Origin: Alcaligenaceae bacterium
GTDB lineage: Bacteria; Pseudomonadota; Gammaproteobacteria; Burkholderiales; Burkholderiaceae_B
DNA length: 64,000 bases
Reading direction: 5' to 3'
Assembly (NCBI GenBank): GCA_030538235.1
Contig: JAUNUJ010000005.1
Span: forward strand, 124,001 to 188,000
The position numbers and the translations under genes are program-made. The notes below the pieces were generated by a model. The model searched no databases. It was not told where the DNA came from and saw only the letters and a program-made list of their open reading frames with translations. Below are positions 24,159-38,511 of the stretch, one piece after another (the first letter of the stretch is position 1; each line of letters opens with the position of its first letter).

Positions 24159-25124
24159 TTGAAGGGATTTTCTTCTTTTCTCTCCTTGTTGATTGGTCTT
24201 TACTTGTCATTGCTATCGTCAGCGGCAGGCGCCTTTCCTAATGCCTATAATTTATTGGGTTTTTCACAGGTTGAGTACGAAGTTGCAATTAATCCATGTC
24301 TTGATCAGGCTGTTTTATTTGAGCGCTTTGGTCGAGAGGCCCTAGTAGCTCAGGAAAAGGAACTCGCTAAGTGGCCAAAGGGTCTGTGCCAGAATCTTGA
24401 GGTGGCCCGTCAGCTCCTTACTTGGAATTACTATTACACCACCTTACTTGCTAACACCGAGCGTCCGACGGTGATTGCCGGCGAGATCAGTAAGCATATT
24501 AAATCGCTTGAGGCGTGTACTGATTTATCTTGTCTTAATCGCTTATTACCGAGAATCACTGAGTGGGTCTATTTAAATATTGATCGTCTTCCGGTCTATA
24601 CCGACTCTGAAAGCGCACGACGTAGTCAAGCCTCTTTAGCCGGTGACCCGGTGTTGCATCCCAGTTTAGCTTTGAGAAACTTGCCATTGCCCTTATCCGG
24701 TTTAGCTGAGGGGTGTAATGGCACGGATATTAATGTGCTCAATTTCTATACGGTTAATTTTTCAGTAGAAGGTCGCCCTTTGGTACTCGCCATGTGCAAA
24801 GAAACCGCAAATGGTGCCGGCCACAAGCAAAATATTTGGCTTTTAGAGCGACTGGACCCAAATGGTTCGACCTCCGGACTTGGTGCGTCAGCGGGCAGTG
24901 GGTGGCGTGAAATTTTGGTCGAAAGAGGCGATTCCCGTCTCTATGTTTTTACTGATAGTCGTACGGCATATCCAACACTTTATAGTCGTCGCTCAACCGG
25001 CTCCGGTGAGCAGTTAGTCGTCTATGATTTTCAGGCCTCGGGGCAGCAATACACGCGTAGTACGGTATTGAATCTGGAGTACGATACGTTGGGTCGTGCG
25101 CATGCTTTTATGCTTCGCCCTTAA
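24159..25124 (+). CDS. secreted protein of unknown function
   Basis: I do not recognise this 321-residue protein. TTG 24159 gives a sound Sec signal peptide (Lys2, hydrophobic SFLSLLIGLYLSLLSS, cleavage after AGA near residue 25), and GAGG nine bases upstream can serve as ribosome site. The mature part has a helical N-terminal half with cysteines in NPCLDQ, GLCQN and EACTDLSC, and EGCNG and AMCKE further on. It ends in a beta-rich half with strands such as WREILVERGDSRLYVFTDS and EQLVVYDFQ. Six cysteines suggest disulfides in the periplasm. No membrane anchor or lipobox. It precedes carA on the same strand, but carA has its own promoter-like sequence, so a functional link is not implied. Confidence 0.72.
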   Translation: MKGFSSFLSLLIGLYLSLLSSAAGAFPNAYNLLGFSQVEYEVAINPCLDQAVLFERFGREALVAQEKELAKWPKGLCQNLEVARQLLTWNYYYTTLLANTERPTVIAGEISKHIKSLEACTDLSCLNRLLPRITEWVYLNIDRLPVYTDSESARRSQASLAGDPVLHPSLALRNLPLPLSGLAEGCNGTDINVLNFYTVNFSVEGRPLVLAMCKETANGAGHKQNIWLLERLDPNGSTSGLGASAGSGWREILVERGDSRLYVFTDSRTAYPTLYSRRSTGSGEQLVVYDFQASGQQYTRSTVLNLEYDTLGRAHAFMLRP

Positions 25125-25269: not shown

Positions 25270-26424
25270 ATGGCGCACTCAAGTAGCATTTTCGCTTATC
25301 AAAATGGTGTTGAGCCGGCAATTCTCGCTTTGGCTGATGGTACCGTGTTTAGAGGCCGTTCAATCGGTGCGGCGGGTCATAGCACAGCAGAAATTGTATT
25401 CAACACATCAATGGTCGGTTATCAGGAGCTTTTGACAGATCCCGGTTATCACCAACAAATTATCACCCTGACTTATCCACACATCGGCAATAGCGGCATT
25501 AACTCAGAGGACAATGAATCCTCTCAAATTCAGGCGGCGGGCCTAGTGATTCGTAGCTGCCCTGTACGTTATTCAAATTTCCGCGCCGATCAGTCTTTAC
25601 CTGAGTACCTCAAGGCCAACGGCATCGTTGCTATTAGTGATATTGATACCCGTAAATTAACTCGTATTTTGCGTGAAAGCGGTGCCCAGGTAGCCTGTAT
25701 TATGGTTGGCGACGATGAGGCAAAAGCCATTGAATTGGCTAGGACTCATACGCCTCTTCAGGCGCAAGCGTCGGTCAAAGCCGTTAGTCGTCGAGAGCCC
25801 ACTGAGTGGACTCAGACGTCTTGGCAATTGCACGAGGGCTATGGTGATTTAAGCGATGCTTCTTACCACGTGGTAGTCTATGATTTTGGTGTTAAAAACA
25901 GCTTTTTACGCTTATTAGCTGATAGAAAGTGTCGCCTTACCGTGGTGCCTGCTGAGACACCGGTAGCCGATGTGCTCGCGCTTAATCCTGATGGCGTGTT
26001 TTTATCTAATGGTCCTGGCGATCCGATGGCTTGTGATTTTGCCATTGACAATACCAAGCAATTATTACAACAAAAAATCCCATTATTTGCTATTGGTCTG
26101 GGTTATCAAATCCTGGCTTTAGCCACCGGCGCCAAGACGTTTAAATTGAAAGCAGGCAATCACGGTGCTAACCATCCGGTCAAAGACTTGGCAAGCGGTC
26201 GTGTGCATATCACCGTACAAAATCACAATTTTGCGGTCGCTGCTGATAGCCTTCCGGAGGGTGTCACGCCTAGTCATATTTCATTGTTTGATGACAATCT
26301 TCAAGGTATCAAGCTACGCGATTGTCCGGCCTTTGGCTTCCAGGGTCACCCTGAAGCAACTAGCGCCCCTCATGCAGCGGTGTCTTTGTTTGATCAATTT
26401 ATTAATTTAATGGCAGAAAAGTAG
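25270..26424 (+). CDS. carA: carbamoyl-phosphate synthetase small subunit, glutaminase nucleophile replaced
   Basis: Normally the class I amidotransferase subunit that frees ammonia from glutamine for CarB. The 384 residues align along their whole length with Car[18 protein letters not shown] in the N-terminal domain, [22 protein letters not shown], and FQGHPEAT with His360 and Glu362 of the triad kept. The nucleophile motif usually reads G-I-C-L-G-H-Q but here reads A-I-G-L-G-Y-Q. Cys is Gly276 (codon GGT at 26095-26097) and the following His is Tyr279 (TAT). Nearby GHHGGNHP reads GNHGANHP. Loss of this Cys is known to abolish glutamine use while ammonia-dependent synthesis by CarB can continue. 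The frame is intact, and carB starts six bases after the stop. Confidence 0.95.
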
Positions 26425-26430
26425 AGAATT

Positions 26431-29400
26431 ATGCCTAAGCGTACAGATTTAAAAAGTATTTTAATTATTGGTGCCGGTCCGATTATTATCGGTCAAGCCT
26501 GTGAATTCGACTACTCCGGAGCCCAGGCATGTAAAGCCCTAAAGGCTGAGGGTTACCGCACGATTCTGGTCAATAGCAATCCGGCAACCATCATGACTGA
26601 CCCGGAAACGGCCGATGTCACTTACATCGAACCCATTACCTGGCAGGCAGTTGAGCGTATTATTGAGGTGGAAAAACCTGACGCTTTATTACCGACTATG
26701 GGTGGTCAAACCGCACTTAACTGTGCTCTGGATTTAGCTCGTCACGGGGTCTTAGAAAAACATGGCGTAGAGCTTATCGGGGCTAATGAAGCCGCTATCG
26801 AAAAAGCTGAAGATCGCATGAAGTTTAAAGACGCGATGACTAAAATCGGTCTGGACTCCGCTAAATCAGGTATTGCACATAGCATGGCAGAAGCTTGGGA
26901 AGTACAGCGTGCGATTGCTGAGGAAGTCGGTACATCCGGTTTCCCGGTGGTTATTCGTCCTAGTTTTACCTTGGGTGGAACCGGTGGTGGTATTGCTTAT
27001 AACCCCGAAGAGTTCGAAACTATTTGTCAACGCGGTTTAGAGGCTTCACCGACTAGCGAGTTATTGATTGAAGAATCCTTGCTCGGCTGGAAAGAATACG
27101 AGATGGAAGTGGTTCGCGACTCAGCCGATAACTGCATTATCGTATGTTCCATTGAAAACCTGGACCCGATGGGTGTACATACCGGTGATTCGATTACAGT
27201 AGCGCCGGCACAGACCATGACAGCTAAAGAGTATCGCATCATGCATGATGCGTCTGTGGCTGTGCTGCGCGAGATTGGTGTAGATACCGGTGGTTCTAAC
27301 GTGCAGTTTGCCGTTAACCCTGCCAATGGTCGTATGATTGTGATTGAGATGAACCCCCGTGTTTCACGCTCATCTGCCTTGGCTTCCAAAGCGACTGGTT
27401 TCCCGATTGCTAAAGTCGCTGCACGTTTAGCGGTGGGTTATACCCTTGACGAGTTAAAAAATGAAATTACTGACGGGCTGACACCAACTTCATTTGAACC
27501 GACCATTGACTACGTCGTTACTAAAATTCCGCGCTTTGCCTTTGAAAAATTCCCTCAAGCCGATGACCGTTTGACTACTCAGATGAAGTCAGTAGGTGAG
27601 GTTATGGCGATTGGTCGTACTTTTAAAGAGTCCTTCCAAAAGGCCTTACGTGGTCTTGAGGTAGGTGTTGATGGTCTTAATCAGATGACCATTGATCGAG
27701 AGAAGCTCCAGGTTGAATTGGCTGAGCCCGGTCCACAGCGTATCTGGTATGTTGGAGATGCCTTTGCTAAAGGTTTTTCTTTAGAGGAAGTTCATCAATT
27801 AACCAAAATCGATCTCTGGTTCTTAGAGCAAATTAAAGAAATTGTCGATATCGAATTAGCCCTTGAGAAAGTCACTCTGGCTGCTATTGAGCCTGCTACC
27901 ATGTTGGAGCTAAAGCGCAACGGCTTCTCCGACCGTCGTTTGGCCTATTTGCTGGACACCACTGAAGCTGAAGTTCGTAAAAATCGTCATCAGAACAATA
28001 TCCGTCCTGTATATAAGCGCGTTGATACATGTGCCGGTGAATTCCCGACCGGAACTGCTTATATGTACTCTACTTACGAGGAAGAGTGCGAAGCCCAACC
28101 AACCGACAAAAAGAAAATCATTGTTCTTGGTGGTGGTCCTAACCGTATTGGTCAGGGTATTGAGTTTGACTATTGCTGCGTGCATGCGAGCTTTGCTCTA
28201 CGTGATGACGGTTACGAAACCATTATGATTAACTGTAATCCGGAGACGGTTTCTACAGACTACGATACCTCTGATCGGCTGTACTTTGAGCCTTTGACGC
28301 TTGAGGATGTACTGGAAATTGTTGAAGTAGAGAAACCGGTTGGCATGATTGTACAATACGGTGGTCAGACGCCACTTAAATTAGCTCGTGACCTAGAGGC
28401 TAATGGCGTGCCGATTATCGGTACCAGCCCAGAGTCTATCGACATCGCCGAGGACCGTGAGCGTTTCCAAAAGCTACTGCAAAAACTCGGTTTACGTCAA
28501 CCGCCTAACCGTACTGCTCGAACTGAAAGCGAAGCGTTAACTCAGGCTGCGGAAATCGGTTACCCCTTAGTGGTTCGCCCATCTTATGTGTTAGGTGGTC
28601 GTGCTATGGAAATCGTTCATGAGCAGAGCGATTTAGAGCGCTATATGCGCGAAGCAGTTAAGGTCAGCAACGACTCTCCGGTGTTATTGGATCGATTCCT
28701 GAACAATGCCATCGAAGTGGACGTTGATTGTATTGCCGACGGTGAGCAGGTCTTTATCGGTGGTGTGATGCAGCATATTGAGCAAGCCGGTGTTCACTCC
28801 GGTGACTCAGGTTGTAGCTTGCCGCCGTACTCATTAGATGAGGCAACGGTCGAAGAGATTAAGCGTCAAACTAGCCTAATGGCTAAGGCCCTTGATGTTA
28901 AAGGTTTGATGAACGTACAGTTTGCCATTCAAGACGGTGATGTGTATGTCTTAGAGGTCAACCCGCGTGCTTCACGTACCGTGCCATTTGTCTCTAAAGC
29001 CACCGGTTTGCAATTAGCTAAAATCGCTGCGCGTGCCATGGCCAGTAAGAGCTTGGCTGAGCAGGGCGTAGAAAAAGAGGTGATACCACCTTTCTATAGC
29101 GTCAAAGAAGCCGTCTTCCCCTTTGTGAAGTTCCCAGGTGTCGATACGATTCTTGGTCCTGAGATGAAATCTACCGGTGAGGTCATGGGTGTAGGCAAAA
29201 CCTTTGGCGAGGCCTTCCTTAAATCGCAGATTGGTGCCGGTGCCTCTTTACCGGAATCTGGTACGGTTTTCTTGAGTGTCAGAGATCAAGACAAGGACAA
29301 GGCGCTTGAAATTGCTAAGGGCTTGCATGATTTAGGCTTTAAACTGCGCGCTACTCGCGGTACTGCCGCTAAAATTAGCGATGCTGGTATTCCAGTGCAG

Positions 29401-29667
29401 GCAGTTAATAAGGTAACCGAAGGTCGTCCTCATATTGTGGATATGATCAAAAATGATGAGATCGACATGGTGATTAACACCGTCGAAGAGCGCCGTAATG
29501 CGATCAATGACTCGAAAACCATTCGTACTCATGCTTTAGCGGGTAGTTTGACCTTCTTTACCACCATCGCTGGTGCTCATGCGGCAGTTCAAGGTATGCT
29601 TTATATGCGTGCGTCCAAGACGATGAATGTCTACTCTTTACAAGAGTTACACAAAGAGATGCAGTAA
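26431..29667 (+). CDS. carB: carbamoyl-phosphate synthetase large subunit
   Basis: Makes carbamoyl phosphate from bicarbonate, ammonia and two ATP for pyrimidines and arginine. The 1078 residues have the expected duplicated ATP-grasp layout. The first half starts [21 protein letters not shown], with [10 protein letters not shown] and the ATP loop [11 protein letters not shown]. An oligomerisation region spans about 400-550. The second half starts [21 protein letters not shown], with [10 protein letters not shown] and [13 protein letters not shown]. An MGS-type allosteric domain (about 940-1078) includes [23 protein letters not shown]. Both synthetase sites look intact, in contrast to the altered glutaminase of carA just upstream. 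Confidence 0.97.
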
Positions 29668-30592: not shown

Positions 30593-32044
30593 ATGAGCGA
30601 TAAGGATCAACCCACATCAGATGAAGCGGTAGGTTTCGGCTTTAGTGGCGAGGAAAGTGTTGTGGCCGACGGAGCGGTAGACGAAGAAGTCGAGAGCGTA
30701 GAGTATCAGACGCCGGATCCTGATGTTGCGCCATGGTATCCCAAATGGCGTGTGGTAGAAAGCCTAAAATCGGGACAAATGATTGCGCCGGATGAGCGTT
30801 TACCAATGGGGCAGTCGTTGGTGATGGGTGTGCAGCACGTGGTTGCCATGTTCGGTGCCACAGTGTTGGGACCATTGCTGATGGGCTTTGATGCCAATCT
30901 GGCCATTCTGATGTCGGGTATCGGTACTCTTATCTTTTTCTTCTTCGTCAAGGGGCAAGTGCCGAGCTATTTAGGCTCTAGCTTTGCCTTTATTGGTGGC
31001 GTCGTTTCAGTGACAGCCTACAGCGGCTCCGGTCTGAATCCTAATATTGGTGTGGCCTTAGGCGCAATAATTGTTTGTGGACTTATTTATACCTTGATAG
31101 GACTCGTGGTTTGGCATTTCAATGCCAAAGGCAGTGCCTCGGCTTGGATTGAGAAATTCATGCCACCGGTGGTCACCGGTGCTATTGTCGCGGTCATTGG
31201 ACTGAACCTAGCGCCGGTAGCAGCCAGTGGGGCGATGGCTAGCGGTAGTACTTATGATGCAGTGATGGCTATTGTGACCATGACCAGCGTTGGTTTGGTT
31301 GCAGTATTTACTCGAGGCATGCTGCAACGCCTGTTAATTCTCATAGGTCTAATTTTGTCTTATCTAGTTTATTTCCTCTTCAGTAATATCTTAGGTTTTG
31401 GGACATCGGTTGATTTAAGTGCAGTGGCTGCGGCGCCGTGGTTTGGATTGCCCACTTTTTATAAGCCTGAATTTCAATTCTCTGCGATCACGATTATTGC
31501 CCCTGTCGCGATTATTTTAGTCGCAGAAAACTTAGGGCATATTCGTGCGGTCAGTGCCATGACTGGGCGCGATCTGGATAAGTACTTGGGCCGCGCTTTT
31601 GTGGGTGATGGGGTAGCCACCATGGTCGCTGCTTCAGTTGGCGGTACCGGGGTAACAACCTATGGTGAAAATATCGGTGTGATGTCAGTAACACGTATTT
31701 ACTCCACTATAATTTTTGTGATTGCCGCAATATTTGCGATTATTTTAGGTTTCTCACCTAAGTTCGGCGCTTTGATTCATAGTGTTCCGGCGCCTGTATT
31801 GGGTGGTGTCTCGGTGGTTGTTTTTGGTCTGATTGCGATTGCCGGAGCCCGTATCTGGGTGACTAATCGAGTTGATTTTTCTGATAATCGGAATTTGATT
31901 GTTGCAGCAATTGCCGTGATCCTTGGTGCAGGTAATTTTACCATCGAATTAGGTATGTTTAAGCTTGAAGGAATAGGTACGGCAACTTTTGGTGCTATTC
32001 TGCTTTATCAATTGCTAAGCCTTGATAGAGGAAACAAAAAGTAA
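30593..32044 (+). CDS. NCS2 (uracil-xanthine) family permease
   Basis: Inner-membrane nucleobase transporter of 483 residues with about 12-14 hydrophobic segments. NCS2 hallmarks are QHVVAMFGATVLGPLL (about 81-96), the GSSFAFIGGV segment, and AENLGHIRAVSAMTGRDLDKYLGRAF with its substrate-site Glu. The next part, GDGVATMVAASVGGTGVTTYGENIGV, matches the uracil branch (UraA/RutG), so uracil is the likely cargo (inference). About 60 N-terminal residues before the first helix are hydrophilic and acidic (for example AVDEEVESVEYQTPDPDVA), longer than in UraA. A strong promoter and hairpins for greA follow its stop. Confidence 0.88.
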   Translation: MSDKDQPTSDEAVGFGFSGEESVVADGAVDEEVESVEYQTPDPDVAPWYPKWRVVESLKSGQMIAPDERLPMGQSLVMGVQHVVAMFGATVLGPLLMGFDANLAILMSGIGTLIFFFFVKGQVPSYLGSSFAFIGGVVSVTAYSGSGLNPNIGVALGAIIVCGLIYTLIGLVVWHFNAKGSASAWIEKFMPPVVTGAIVAVIGLNLAPVAASGAMASGSTYDAVMAIVTMTSVGLVAVFTRGMLQRLLILIGLILSYLVYFLFSNILGFGTSVDLSAVAAAPWFGLPTFYKPEFQFSAITIIAPVAIILVAENLGHIRAVSAMTGRDLDKYLGRAFVGDGVATMVAASVGGTGVTTYGENIGVMSVTRIYSTIIFVIAAIFAIILGFSPKFGALIHSVPAPVLGGVSVVVFGLIAIAGARIWVTNRVDFSDNRNLIVAAIAVILGAGNFTIELGMFKLEGIGTATFGAILLYQLLSLDRGNKK

Positions 32045-36316: not shown

Positions 36317-37165
36317 ATGAGTAAGAATTTTCTTTGTGGGCGTTATGTCCTTGATTTATCGAGTCCTTTAGTGATGGGGATTGTTAACGTTACACCGGAC
36401 TCTTTTTCTGATGGTGGTGCTCAGTCCAGTCAGTTAAATCTCGCCATTGAGCGCGGATTGCGCATGGTTGAAGCCGGCGCACAGATACTTGATATTGGTG
36501 GTGAATCAACCAGACCGGGTAGTGATGCGGTGTCAGTTGATGAGGAATTACGTCGTGTGATTCCGGTAATAGAGGGTCTCAAGAATGTCGGTGTGCCGTT
36601 ATCCATTGATACTTTAAAGCCCGAAGTCATGCAAGCTGCTCTAGATGCCGGTGTCGATATGATTAATGATATCTACGCGTTGCGTCAACCCGGTGCTCTT
36701 GAGGTGGTGGCTAAGCACCCTAATTGTGGTATTTGTATTATGCATATGGAGGGTGAGCCCAAAACTATGCAGCAATCCCCACCGGATTATGACGGTGATA
36801 TTACGGGTGTTGTTAAGCAATTTCTCCAAGAGAGGGTTAGTGTTTTGCTACAATATAATGTTAGTCCTGCCAGAATTATTCTTGACCCCGGTTTCGGTTT
36901 TGGTAAAACCATAGCTCAAAACTATCAATTATTAAATCAACTGGCAGAGCTTAAGAGTTTAAATCTACCTTTATTAATCGGACTATCGCGTAAATCAATG
37001 ATTGGTGCAGTCACAGGCAAGGAGCCTCAGGATCGCTTAATAGGTAGTGTGGTTGCAGCCATCGCTTGCGCTGATCGTGGTGCTGCAGTTCTTAGAGTGC
37101 ATGATGTGCTCGAAACAGTTGAAGCATTAACTGTTTGGCGTGCAATTCATCAGGGAGAGATATAA
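36317..37165 (+). CDS. folP: dihydropteroate synthase
   Basis: Joins p-aminobenzoate to the pterin pyrophosphate made by FolK; target of sulfonamides. The 282-residue TIM-barrel shows [15 protein letters not shown], the [16 protein letters not shown] loop, [34 protein letters not shown] and LRVHDV. All expected pterin-binding residues seem present, and I see no obvious insertion of the kind linked to sulfonamide-resistant Sul proteins. It lies two bases before glmM, a conserved ftsH-folP-glmM order. Confidence 0.96.
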
Positions 37166-37167
37166 AG

Positions 37168-38511
37168 ATGGCACGTAAGTATTTTGGCACCGATGGTGTA
37201 CGTGGTCGTGTGGGCGGTGAGGTGATCAATGCCGAATTCGCTTTAAAATTGGCTTATGCAGCGGGTCGTGTGTTGGCCAATCAAGCGCTGGAGGGCATTG
37301 ATCGACCGACGGTTTTAATCGGTAAAGACACAAGAGTTTCAGGCTACATGCTTGAGGCTGCGATGCAGGCCGGATTTGCTGCGGCGGGCGTGGATGTGCT
37401 TCTAGCCGGACCTATTCCTACACCGGCAGTGGCTTATTTAACGCGTACCTTGAGATTAAATGCAGGTGTCGTCATCAGTGCTTCGCACAATCCCTACCAT
37501 GATAATGGTATTAAGTTCTTCTCAGAAAATGGTTTAAAACTACCAGACGAGATTGAGATCAAGATTGAGTCACTAATTGATCAAGACATCAAATACGAAG
37601 AGTCCGAATCTATTGGCCGTGCTCGCCGTTTAAGTGATGCTGCCGGACGCTATATTGAGTTCTGTAAGAGCAGTTTTCCTAACGATCTGAACCTTAGAGG
37701 GTTGAAGATAGTGGTTGATGCTGCTCATGGAGCAGCCTATCATGTGGCGCCTCATGTATTTAAGGAGTTGGGCGCGACAGTAGTTGCGATTGGTTGCAGT
37801 CCGGATGGGTTTAATATTAACCGCAATGTCGGTGCCTTATACCCTGAACAGTTAGTTGCCATGGTTAATGCTCAACGAGCCGATTACGGTATTGCCTTGG
37901 ATGGCGATGCTGATCGTCTGCAAATGGTTGATTCAAAAGGTAATATTTACAATGGTGATGAGCTTTTGTACGCTATTGTACTTGAGCGTATGCAACGCTC
38001 CGAAGTCAAAGGTGTGGCCGGTACGTTGATGACTAATTTTGGTCTCGAAAAGCGTTTAAAAGATCTAGGGATTCCTTTGGAGCGTGCTAAAGTCGGCGAC
38101 CGCTATGTTCTTGAAACCTTGCATAAAAACGGTTGGAATTATGGTGGTGAGAGTTCCGGTCACTTACTTTGTTTAGATTGCCATACTACTGGTGACGGTA
38201 TTGTTGCGGCTTTACAGGTTTTAACAGCGGTAGTTCGCAGCTCAAAAACATTAAGAGATTTGACACGCGATCTTAAAATGTACCCACAAATGATGATTAA
38301 TGTTCCATTAAAATCGGGTTTAGACTGGCAAAACCATGCTGAACTCAGTCGTGTGCGCGCCGAAGTCGAGTCTGAGTTAGGCGACAAGGGACGTGTTTTG
38401 ATTCGTGCCTCTGGAACCGAACCCATCCTACGCTTAATGGTCGAAGCCGAGACTCAGGAGATGGCGAAACGTGGGGTAGAGCGTCTTGCAGACGTGAATT
38501 TGGAATCATAA
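37168..38511 (+). CDS. glmM: phosphoglucosamine mutase
   Basis: Converts glucosamine-6-phosphate to the 1-phosphate for UDP-GlcNAc and so peptidoglycan and lipopolysaccharide. The 447 residues start [13 protein letters not shown]. The phosphoserine loop is [15 protein letters not shown] (Ser106), the metal loop is ALDGDADR, the sugar loop is GGESSGH, and the phosphate-binding [14 protein letters not shown] closes the protein. ATG 37168 follows GGGAGAG with good spacing; an upstream in-frame ATG at 37135 would overlap folP. Confidence 0.96.

Follow-up and report, generated by a model that had tools for sequence, protein, structure and literature searches.

Textbooks illustrate the channelling of ammonia with the glutamine amidotransferases, and glutamine itself passes for a nitrogen donor of almost universal use. 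How, then, does a bacterium make carbamoyl phosphate when the small subunit of its synthetase (CarA) carries a glycine at the place of the catalytic cysteine? The locus that raises this question lies in a stretch of 64,000 nucleotides from an Alcaligenaceae bacterium, hereafter the window. The carA gene (25270-26424, forward strand, as are all window genes with a strand given below) is one open frame of 384 amino acids, and its product matches the NCBIfam family TIGR01368 with 428 bits (cut-off 307). The nearest solved structures are CarA proteins of carbamoyl phosphate synthetase, which we take to be those of Escherichia coli. Alignment to a solved small subunit puts the codon GGT at 26095-26097, encoding Gly276, at the position of the catalytic Cys269 of E. 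coli, within an elbow that reads LFAIGLGYQ, and so bears out the original prediction that this cysteine is replaced; one of the two solved small-subunit sequences aligned (1c30) has Ser at 269. The full frame and the other two triad residues, His360-Pro-Glu362 (26347-26355, aligned with E. coli His353 and Glu355), are retained, as had been claimed. Six bases separate the carA stop from the start of carB (26431-29667), whose product, the large synthetase subunit, is of full length (1078 amino acids; TIGR01369, 1540 bits, cut-off 1027) and thus intact, again in agreement with the first reading. Upstream of carA, positions 24159-25124 encode a protein of 321 residues without an NCBIfam match at E 1e-8.

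The remaining active-site changes were sorted by comparison with 102 CarA loci outside the genus Oligella. The Tyr at position 279 had been read as a meaningful change, but this position is variable among the 102 loci (His 85, Gln 12, Phe 4, Ile 1), which weakens this reading. The conversion of the motif GHHGGNHP to GNHGANHP survives in one half: the Gly to Ala exchange is common among relatives, while Asn297 (26158-26160) stands out, as the corresponding His (E. coli His290) is found in 102 of 102 loci. Two further changes had been overlooked, namely Gly59 (GGT, 25444-25446) at the position of E. coli Ser47, which is Ser in 101/102 loci, and Asn320 (26227-26229) at the position of E. coli Gly313, which is Gly in 90/102; Ser47 and Gly313 are presumably located at the glutamine site. 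Because the nucleophile is a Gly and the glutamine pocket is altered as well, CarA is predicted to be unable to split glutamine, and we infer that its glutaminase activity has been lost in the window genome. The NCBIfam label of the protein is still that of a glutamine-hydrolysing enzyme, despite Gly276.

These changes are not a peculiarity of one assembly. The Oligella set consisted of the genome to which the window belongs (G000, 99.45% complete) and six congeners with 77-81% identity: O. ureolytica DSM 18253, O. urethralis DSM 7531, three Alcaligenaceae metagenome genomes (samples AS10 and AS23) and one uncultured Oligella. The loci compared were drawn from 80 named ones, a non-random choice made with query-derived patterns, and from the best 27 matches outside the genus plus G001; the loci L043-L048, which duplicate the contigs of G004, G002, G003, G006, G005 and G007, were counted once, and the 102 CarA sequences from outside Oligella are all distinct from one another. 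At position 276, six of the seven Oligella genomes have Gly and the seventh has Asp; elsewhere 101/102 loci have Cys, the exception being L081, which is described below. Gly or Asp occupies position 59 in 7/7 Oligella, Asn position 297 in 6/7, and Asn or Ser position 320 in 7/7, the last being the least specific change, with Asn or Ser in 12/102 other loci. In two species the triad has eroded further: O. urethralis reads Gln-Pro-Glu and has lost the His as well as the Cys, and O. ureolytica reads His-Pro-Val and has lost the Glu as well as the Cys. The loss of the Cys is thus common to a clade, a point that the first reading had proposed to test. G001, nominally of the same genus, has 62% identity, falls outside the Oligella clade in the PurL tree and has Cys at position 276. 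A sequencing or assembly error, or contamination, would need only one transversion (TGT to GGT) to produce the central change. However, the Cys is also missing in six further assemblies, so that seven agree, two of them from DSM-numbered strains (those of O. ureolytica and O. urethralis), and several linked changes in several genes fall into one clade of the tree; artefact, which the original prediction had already considered improbable, is therefore refuted and is left with a negligible probability.

Is carAB then simply decaying? Carbamoyl phosphate could come from carbamate kinase or arginine deiminase, or be made dispensable by uptake of pyrimidines or arginine, with carAB left functionless. 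A nucleobase permease gene of the NCS2 type does lie downstream of carAB (30593-32044), possibly for pyrimidine uptake, and, measured against the N-terminal domain, the glutamine amidotransferase (GATase) domain of CarA has evolved faster in Oligella than in relatives (divergence ratio 1.48 over 21 pairs vs 0.93 over 78 pairs, with 10 of the 13 outgroup rows clipped at an internal Met). Against decay, CarA is intact and full length in 7/7 Oligella and CarB in 6/6 read, and mean pairwise dN/dS in CarA is about 0.09, i.e., 0.084 in the GATase domain (16/21 pairs usable) and 0.089 in the N-terminal domain, values that are rough since synonymous sites are near saturation. An argF-like frame was recognized by motif, and no match to one carbamate kinase motif was found in the 61% of the own genome scanned. 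Each Oligella genome has one carA, and, as predicted, no second copy was found in any of the seven. Decay confined to carAB would also leave unexplained why other glutaminases are damaged in the same genomes (see below). Local relaxation is for these reasons very unlikely, and a local carA pseudogene is rejected by purifying selection and by loss across the whole clade. The GATase domain of CarA is relaxed yet held, and the frame is under purifying selection, as expected of the structural partner that CarA had been proposed to be. CarB differs in 6/6 Oligella at five positions that are otherwise invariant in the comparison with 18 others (sequence L016 and the large subunit of L067 were left out of this comparison). 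The idea that the CarB changes opened an ammonia route was tried without support beyond these five positions.

The preferred reading, in which CarAB uses free ammonia, gains most from the other amidotransferases of the genus. A profile search with PF00117 detected four class I GATases in the own genome (PabA, CarA, PyrG, and GuaA). In GuaA (L126 1486-3081, contig C9), the motif GIGYGMH aligns with GVCYGMQ of the solved structure 1gpm, the catalytic Cys being gone; as with CarA, the NCBIfam name remains glutamine-hydrolysing. This Cys is lost in 7/7 Oligella (Gly in six, Ala in G004) and kept in 5/5 comparison genomes (G001, G046, G021, G029, G105). Selection on the GuaA GATase domain resembles that on CarA, with a mean dN/dS of 0.097, equally rough, and a divergence ratio of 1.90 vs 1.69, i.e., slight relaxation. 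In PurF, Asp127 has become Asn in 6/6 readable Oligella and Thr76 is changed in 7/7; we take both to be glutamine-site residues, Asp127 binding glutamine. The N-terminal Cys of PurF is replaced by Ser in two Oligella (G003, G005) and retained in the own genome, and all three PurF positions are ordinary in 5/5 comparison genomes. Contig ends cut GuaA of G004 and PurF of G002. PurL has Ser for its Cys, together with an altered SHGEG motif, in G003, G004, G005, and G006, which form exactly one supported subclade of the tree (100/99), and has kept the Cys in the own genome, G002 and G007 as well as in 5/5 comparison genomes. Not all glutaminases are affected: PyrG has its Cys in 6/6 Oligella genes read (no PyrG was found in G005), as does PabA (6/6 genes read, none found in G003). 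Since PyrG, PabA and, in three of seven genomes, PurL keep their Cys, glutamine must still be used somewhere. Genes resembling asparagine synthase (L175 1408-3174, L172 1414-3210) were also seen, and the genes upstream of them resemble each other; the glutaminase Cys is kept in O. ureolytica, while the metagenome genome G003 has Ser at this place and several altered motifs.

The cleanest case among these losses is HisH. The histidine operon of the own genome (L331 5692-10852, contig C8) reads hisG-hisD-hisB-hisA-hisF-hisI-hisE, without hisH; HisF (TIGR00735, 340 bits, cut-off 295) and HisB were named by NCBIfam, the other genes by motif, PF00977 or eye. HisH is missing from the six Oligella operons seen and from the PF00117 matches of 7/7 genomes, and G002 has neither HisA nor HisF above cut-off. 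In G001, G021, and G046, hisH occupies a hisB-hisA gap of 691-863 bp; in 6/6 Oligella operons this gap measures 201-264 bp, and tblastn detected no hisH remnant in it. That a gap of this size (in the own genome from hisB to the likely hisA start, L331 8023-8283) is preserved in six Oligella without hisH is an observation of its own. In HisF of 6/6 Oligella, Gln123 is changed to Glu and Asp98 to Ser or Ala, both residues being conserved in the three relatives compared, to which G105 does not belong. In the HisF:HisH complex, Gln123 of HisF recognizes the glutamine carboxylate and Asp98 is a key allosteric residue (PMC9052757). As the changed residues are those with roles in the complex, Oligella HisF seems, judged by these positions, to be adapted to life without HisH.

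The HisF changes also bear on the possibility that glutamine is still the donor and that a glutaminase acting in trans (PabA, PyrG, an amidase or another protein) feeds the orphan synthetases. PabA and PyrG would be available for this, with their Cys intact where read, glutamine synthetase (GlnA) is present, and HisF has kept Lys99. Yet several different partners would have to be replaced, the side of HisF that recognizes glutamine (Gln123, Asp98) is changed in 6/6, and the four class I GATases in the own genome are all assigned, with no extra one by PF00117. Supply in trans is accordingly given little credence.

Two enzymes are missing altogether from most or all Oligella. GlmS was not found in 6/7 Oligella nor in G105, whereas O. 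urethralis, G001, G046, G021, and G029 have it. The next step toward the cell wall is kept in the window, where glmM (37135-38511, forward strand) encodes a phosphoglucosamine mutase (TIGR01455, 581 bits, cut-off 448), so that glucosamine 6-phosphate needs some source. A GlmS without its glutaminase domain, or a stand-alone substitute of the SIS type, is rejected as this source, as a SIS-domain search was negative. NagB with its motif was found in 5/7 Oligella. As the sole replacement of GlmS it is a weak, merely possible candidate: G002 and G004 have neither enzyme and G046 has both. The two genomes with neither are metagenome Oligella with 88 and 93% completeness. Akkermansia muciniphila likewise has no GlmS and has NagB, which does not aminate under physiological conditions, and it needs an external amino sugar (PMC5902328); some Oligella share this gene content. 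Glutamate synthase (GOGAT), searched by the GATase_2 domain alone (PF00310, with matches in 12/14 control genomes), was found in G001, G046, and G021, but in none of the seven Oligella and neither in G105 nor in G029. Three congeners are 84-88% complete, which makes single absences weak; the argument from absence is carried by G000, G006, and G007 (99-100%).

A missing GOGAT would also fit a shortage of glutamine, rather than an excess of ammonia, as the driving force of the losses, for instance where the glutamine synthetase has little activity or is under tight control, or where glutamine must be taken up. The glnA gene of the own genome is however full length and intact, and PyrG and PabA are kept where read, which argues against shortage and makes it an unlikely cause; presence of the synthetase is consistent with the kept PyrG and PabA and with the glutamine need of protein. 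The absence of GOGAT is in any case not diagnostic, since G029, a genome of 1.7 Mb, is also without it and has kept GlmS and the catalytic residues of CarA, GuaA, PurF, and PurL. G029 has no match to HisH and PabA either; for this reason, an absent gene by itself counts for less than a retained gene with dead residues. The comparison genomes from the family retain the catalytic residues, and as this small one does so too and keeps GlmS, genome reduction alone is weakened as a cause.

The distribution of the lesions on the tree gives an order of loss. Genus-wide, as far as readable, are the losses of the Cys in CarA and GuaA, of Asp127 in PurF, and of HisH and GOGAT. Narrower are those of the PurL Cys (one subclade), the PurF Cys (two species inside that subclade) and GlmS (all but O. 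urethralis). A partial, separate case is the Aeromonadales metagenome genome AS23ysBPME_17 (G105). In its CarA (L081, 5962-7131), the Cys, Ser47, the His and the Glu are replaced by Gly, Ala, Thr and Gln, respectively; the neighbouring carB is open, and a dapB-like frame close by was recognized by eye. In this genome, GlmS and GOGAT have no match and GuaA, PurL, PurF, and HisH are intact; its loss of the CarA Cys is independent of that in Oligella. It shares its sample name with an Oligella metagenome genome.

The lesions, taken together, are very probably explained by an ammonia-dependent CarAB that is one part of a genus-wide shift from glutamine to free ammonia. CarA would no longer hydrolyse glutamine and would stay as a folded partner of CarB, which would make carbamoyl phosphate from free NH3, bicarbonate, and ATP. 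As a general property of these enzymes, CarB, the synthetase domain of GuaA and PurF can accept ammonia. The same is documented for HisF (PMC3896937), and free NH3 would enter the synthetase subunits directly. Oligella has in this manner probably given up glutamine as donor for carbamoyl phosphate, GMP, phosphoribosylamine, and imidazole glycerol phosphate and, in one subclade, for FGAM; as far as its genes indicate, the bacterium of the window probably builds pyrimidines, arginine, purines, and histidine from free ammonia. The cost of direct use would be the need for high internal ammonia, and a lasting high level, arising from ammonia-rich habitats and amino-acid catabolism, is the likely cause of the shift, as under such conditions glutaminases would become dispensable.

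What is known of the habitats of the genus is consistent with such a cause. Species related to the source bacterium come from urine, from manure, and from the tanks of biogas plants. Oligella are non-fermenters (PMC11178559) and ranked first in abundance among the genera of raw piggery wastewater (PMC9429445), and genomes with about 80% ANI to O. ureolytica were obtained in a digester series fed with manure, at 2.07 g ammonium-N per litre (PMC5985405). The original prediction had named free ammonia as the donor, perhaps in an ammonia-rich or ureolytic niche. The donor part is strengthened by the parallel losses in GuaA, PurF, PurL, HisH, GlmS, and GOGAT, but ureolysis is rejected as the general cause, because in published tests O. 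ureolytica is urease-positive and O. urethralis, which has the lesions, is urease-negative (PMC11178559). In the scanned 61% of the own genome, there was no match to a urease motif, which is weak as a sign of absence, and none to one ammonium transporter motif.

Parts of this picture have precedents. Vertebrate carbamoyl phosphate synthetase (CPS) I of the urea cycle works on free ammonia and has kept the small-subunit-like domain, though without the catalytic Cys (PMC7657897). Oligella CarA shares with it both the missing Cys, a CPS I-type trait that holds for the window CarA, and the kept small-subunit part, and the mitochondrial CPS [ammonia] 5dot is among the solved-structure matches of the window CarA (E 9e-50). 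In contrast to the CPS I type, carA and carB in the window are separate genes without a one-chain fusion. CPS1 is a single chain that needs N-acetylglutamate and serves in ammonia disposal (PMC4655335), whereas Oligella has two bacterial subunits for biosynthesis, and other amidotransferases have changed too. CPS III of Alcolapia fish has converged on ammonia through a change in a glutamine-binding residue (PMC7657897); it keeps the triad and some glutamine use, unlike the Oligella enzyme, which has lost the Cys and, in two species, the His or the Glu as well.

For HisH, a Corynebacterium glutamicum hisH deletion mutant still makes histidine in medium with ammonia, which is explained by a HisF that depends on ammonia in vivo, while hisH mutants of E. 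coli and Salmonella are auxotrophic, in E. coli despite ammonia in the medium (PMC3896937), so that ordinary ammonia levels are insufficient in E. coli. Several Blochmanniella have a hisH pseudogene, for which high ammonia was proposed as bypass (PMC12779916). However, both accounts deal with HisH only, the hisH of C. glutamicum is still functional, and Blochmanniella belong to the reduced endosymbionts; Oligella do not, and have lost glutaminases in several pathways. Single-domain NAD synthetase is an example of bacterial biosynthetic amidation by free ammonia, with the ammonia form inferred as ancestral (PMC3376133); in Oligella, by comparison, several enzymes that depended on glutamine have together lost the ability to use it. 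That HisH alone can be lost or dispensed with when ammonia serves as bypass, and that GlmS alone can be lost, is already in print. Among the titles and abstract starts listed from the open-licence literature, no bacterium with several glutaminases lost was described, and by this measure the joint loss of several glutaminases in one genus appears to be new. E. coli CarA mutants at Cys269 reportedly retain ammonia-driven synthesis; they concern the same residue but are laboratory mutations, and the state in Oligella is natural and genus-wide.

For annotation, the consequence is practical: as the dead CarA and GuaA are named glutamine-hydrolysing, metabolic models that use NCBIfam names would err at these steps. 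For the biology of the genus, it appears likely that Oligella has largely left glutamine, with at least six systems (CarA, GuaA, PurF, PurL, HisH, GlmS) and GOGAT disabled or deleted stepwise, pyrimidines, arginine, purines, histidine, and probably the cell wall made from ammonia, some dead domains serving as scaffolds, and a lineage of Aeromonadales on the same path. Predicted ammonia-only forms of CPS, GMP synthetase, PRPP amidotransferase, and HisF could be studied in Oligella, and amidotransferases that went dead in parallel within one genus form a natural experiment that may show why other organisms keep channelling and at which ammonia level it becomes dispensable. If this reading is true, dead glutaminases would be genomic markers of a life with ammonia permanently high inside the cell.
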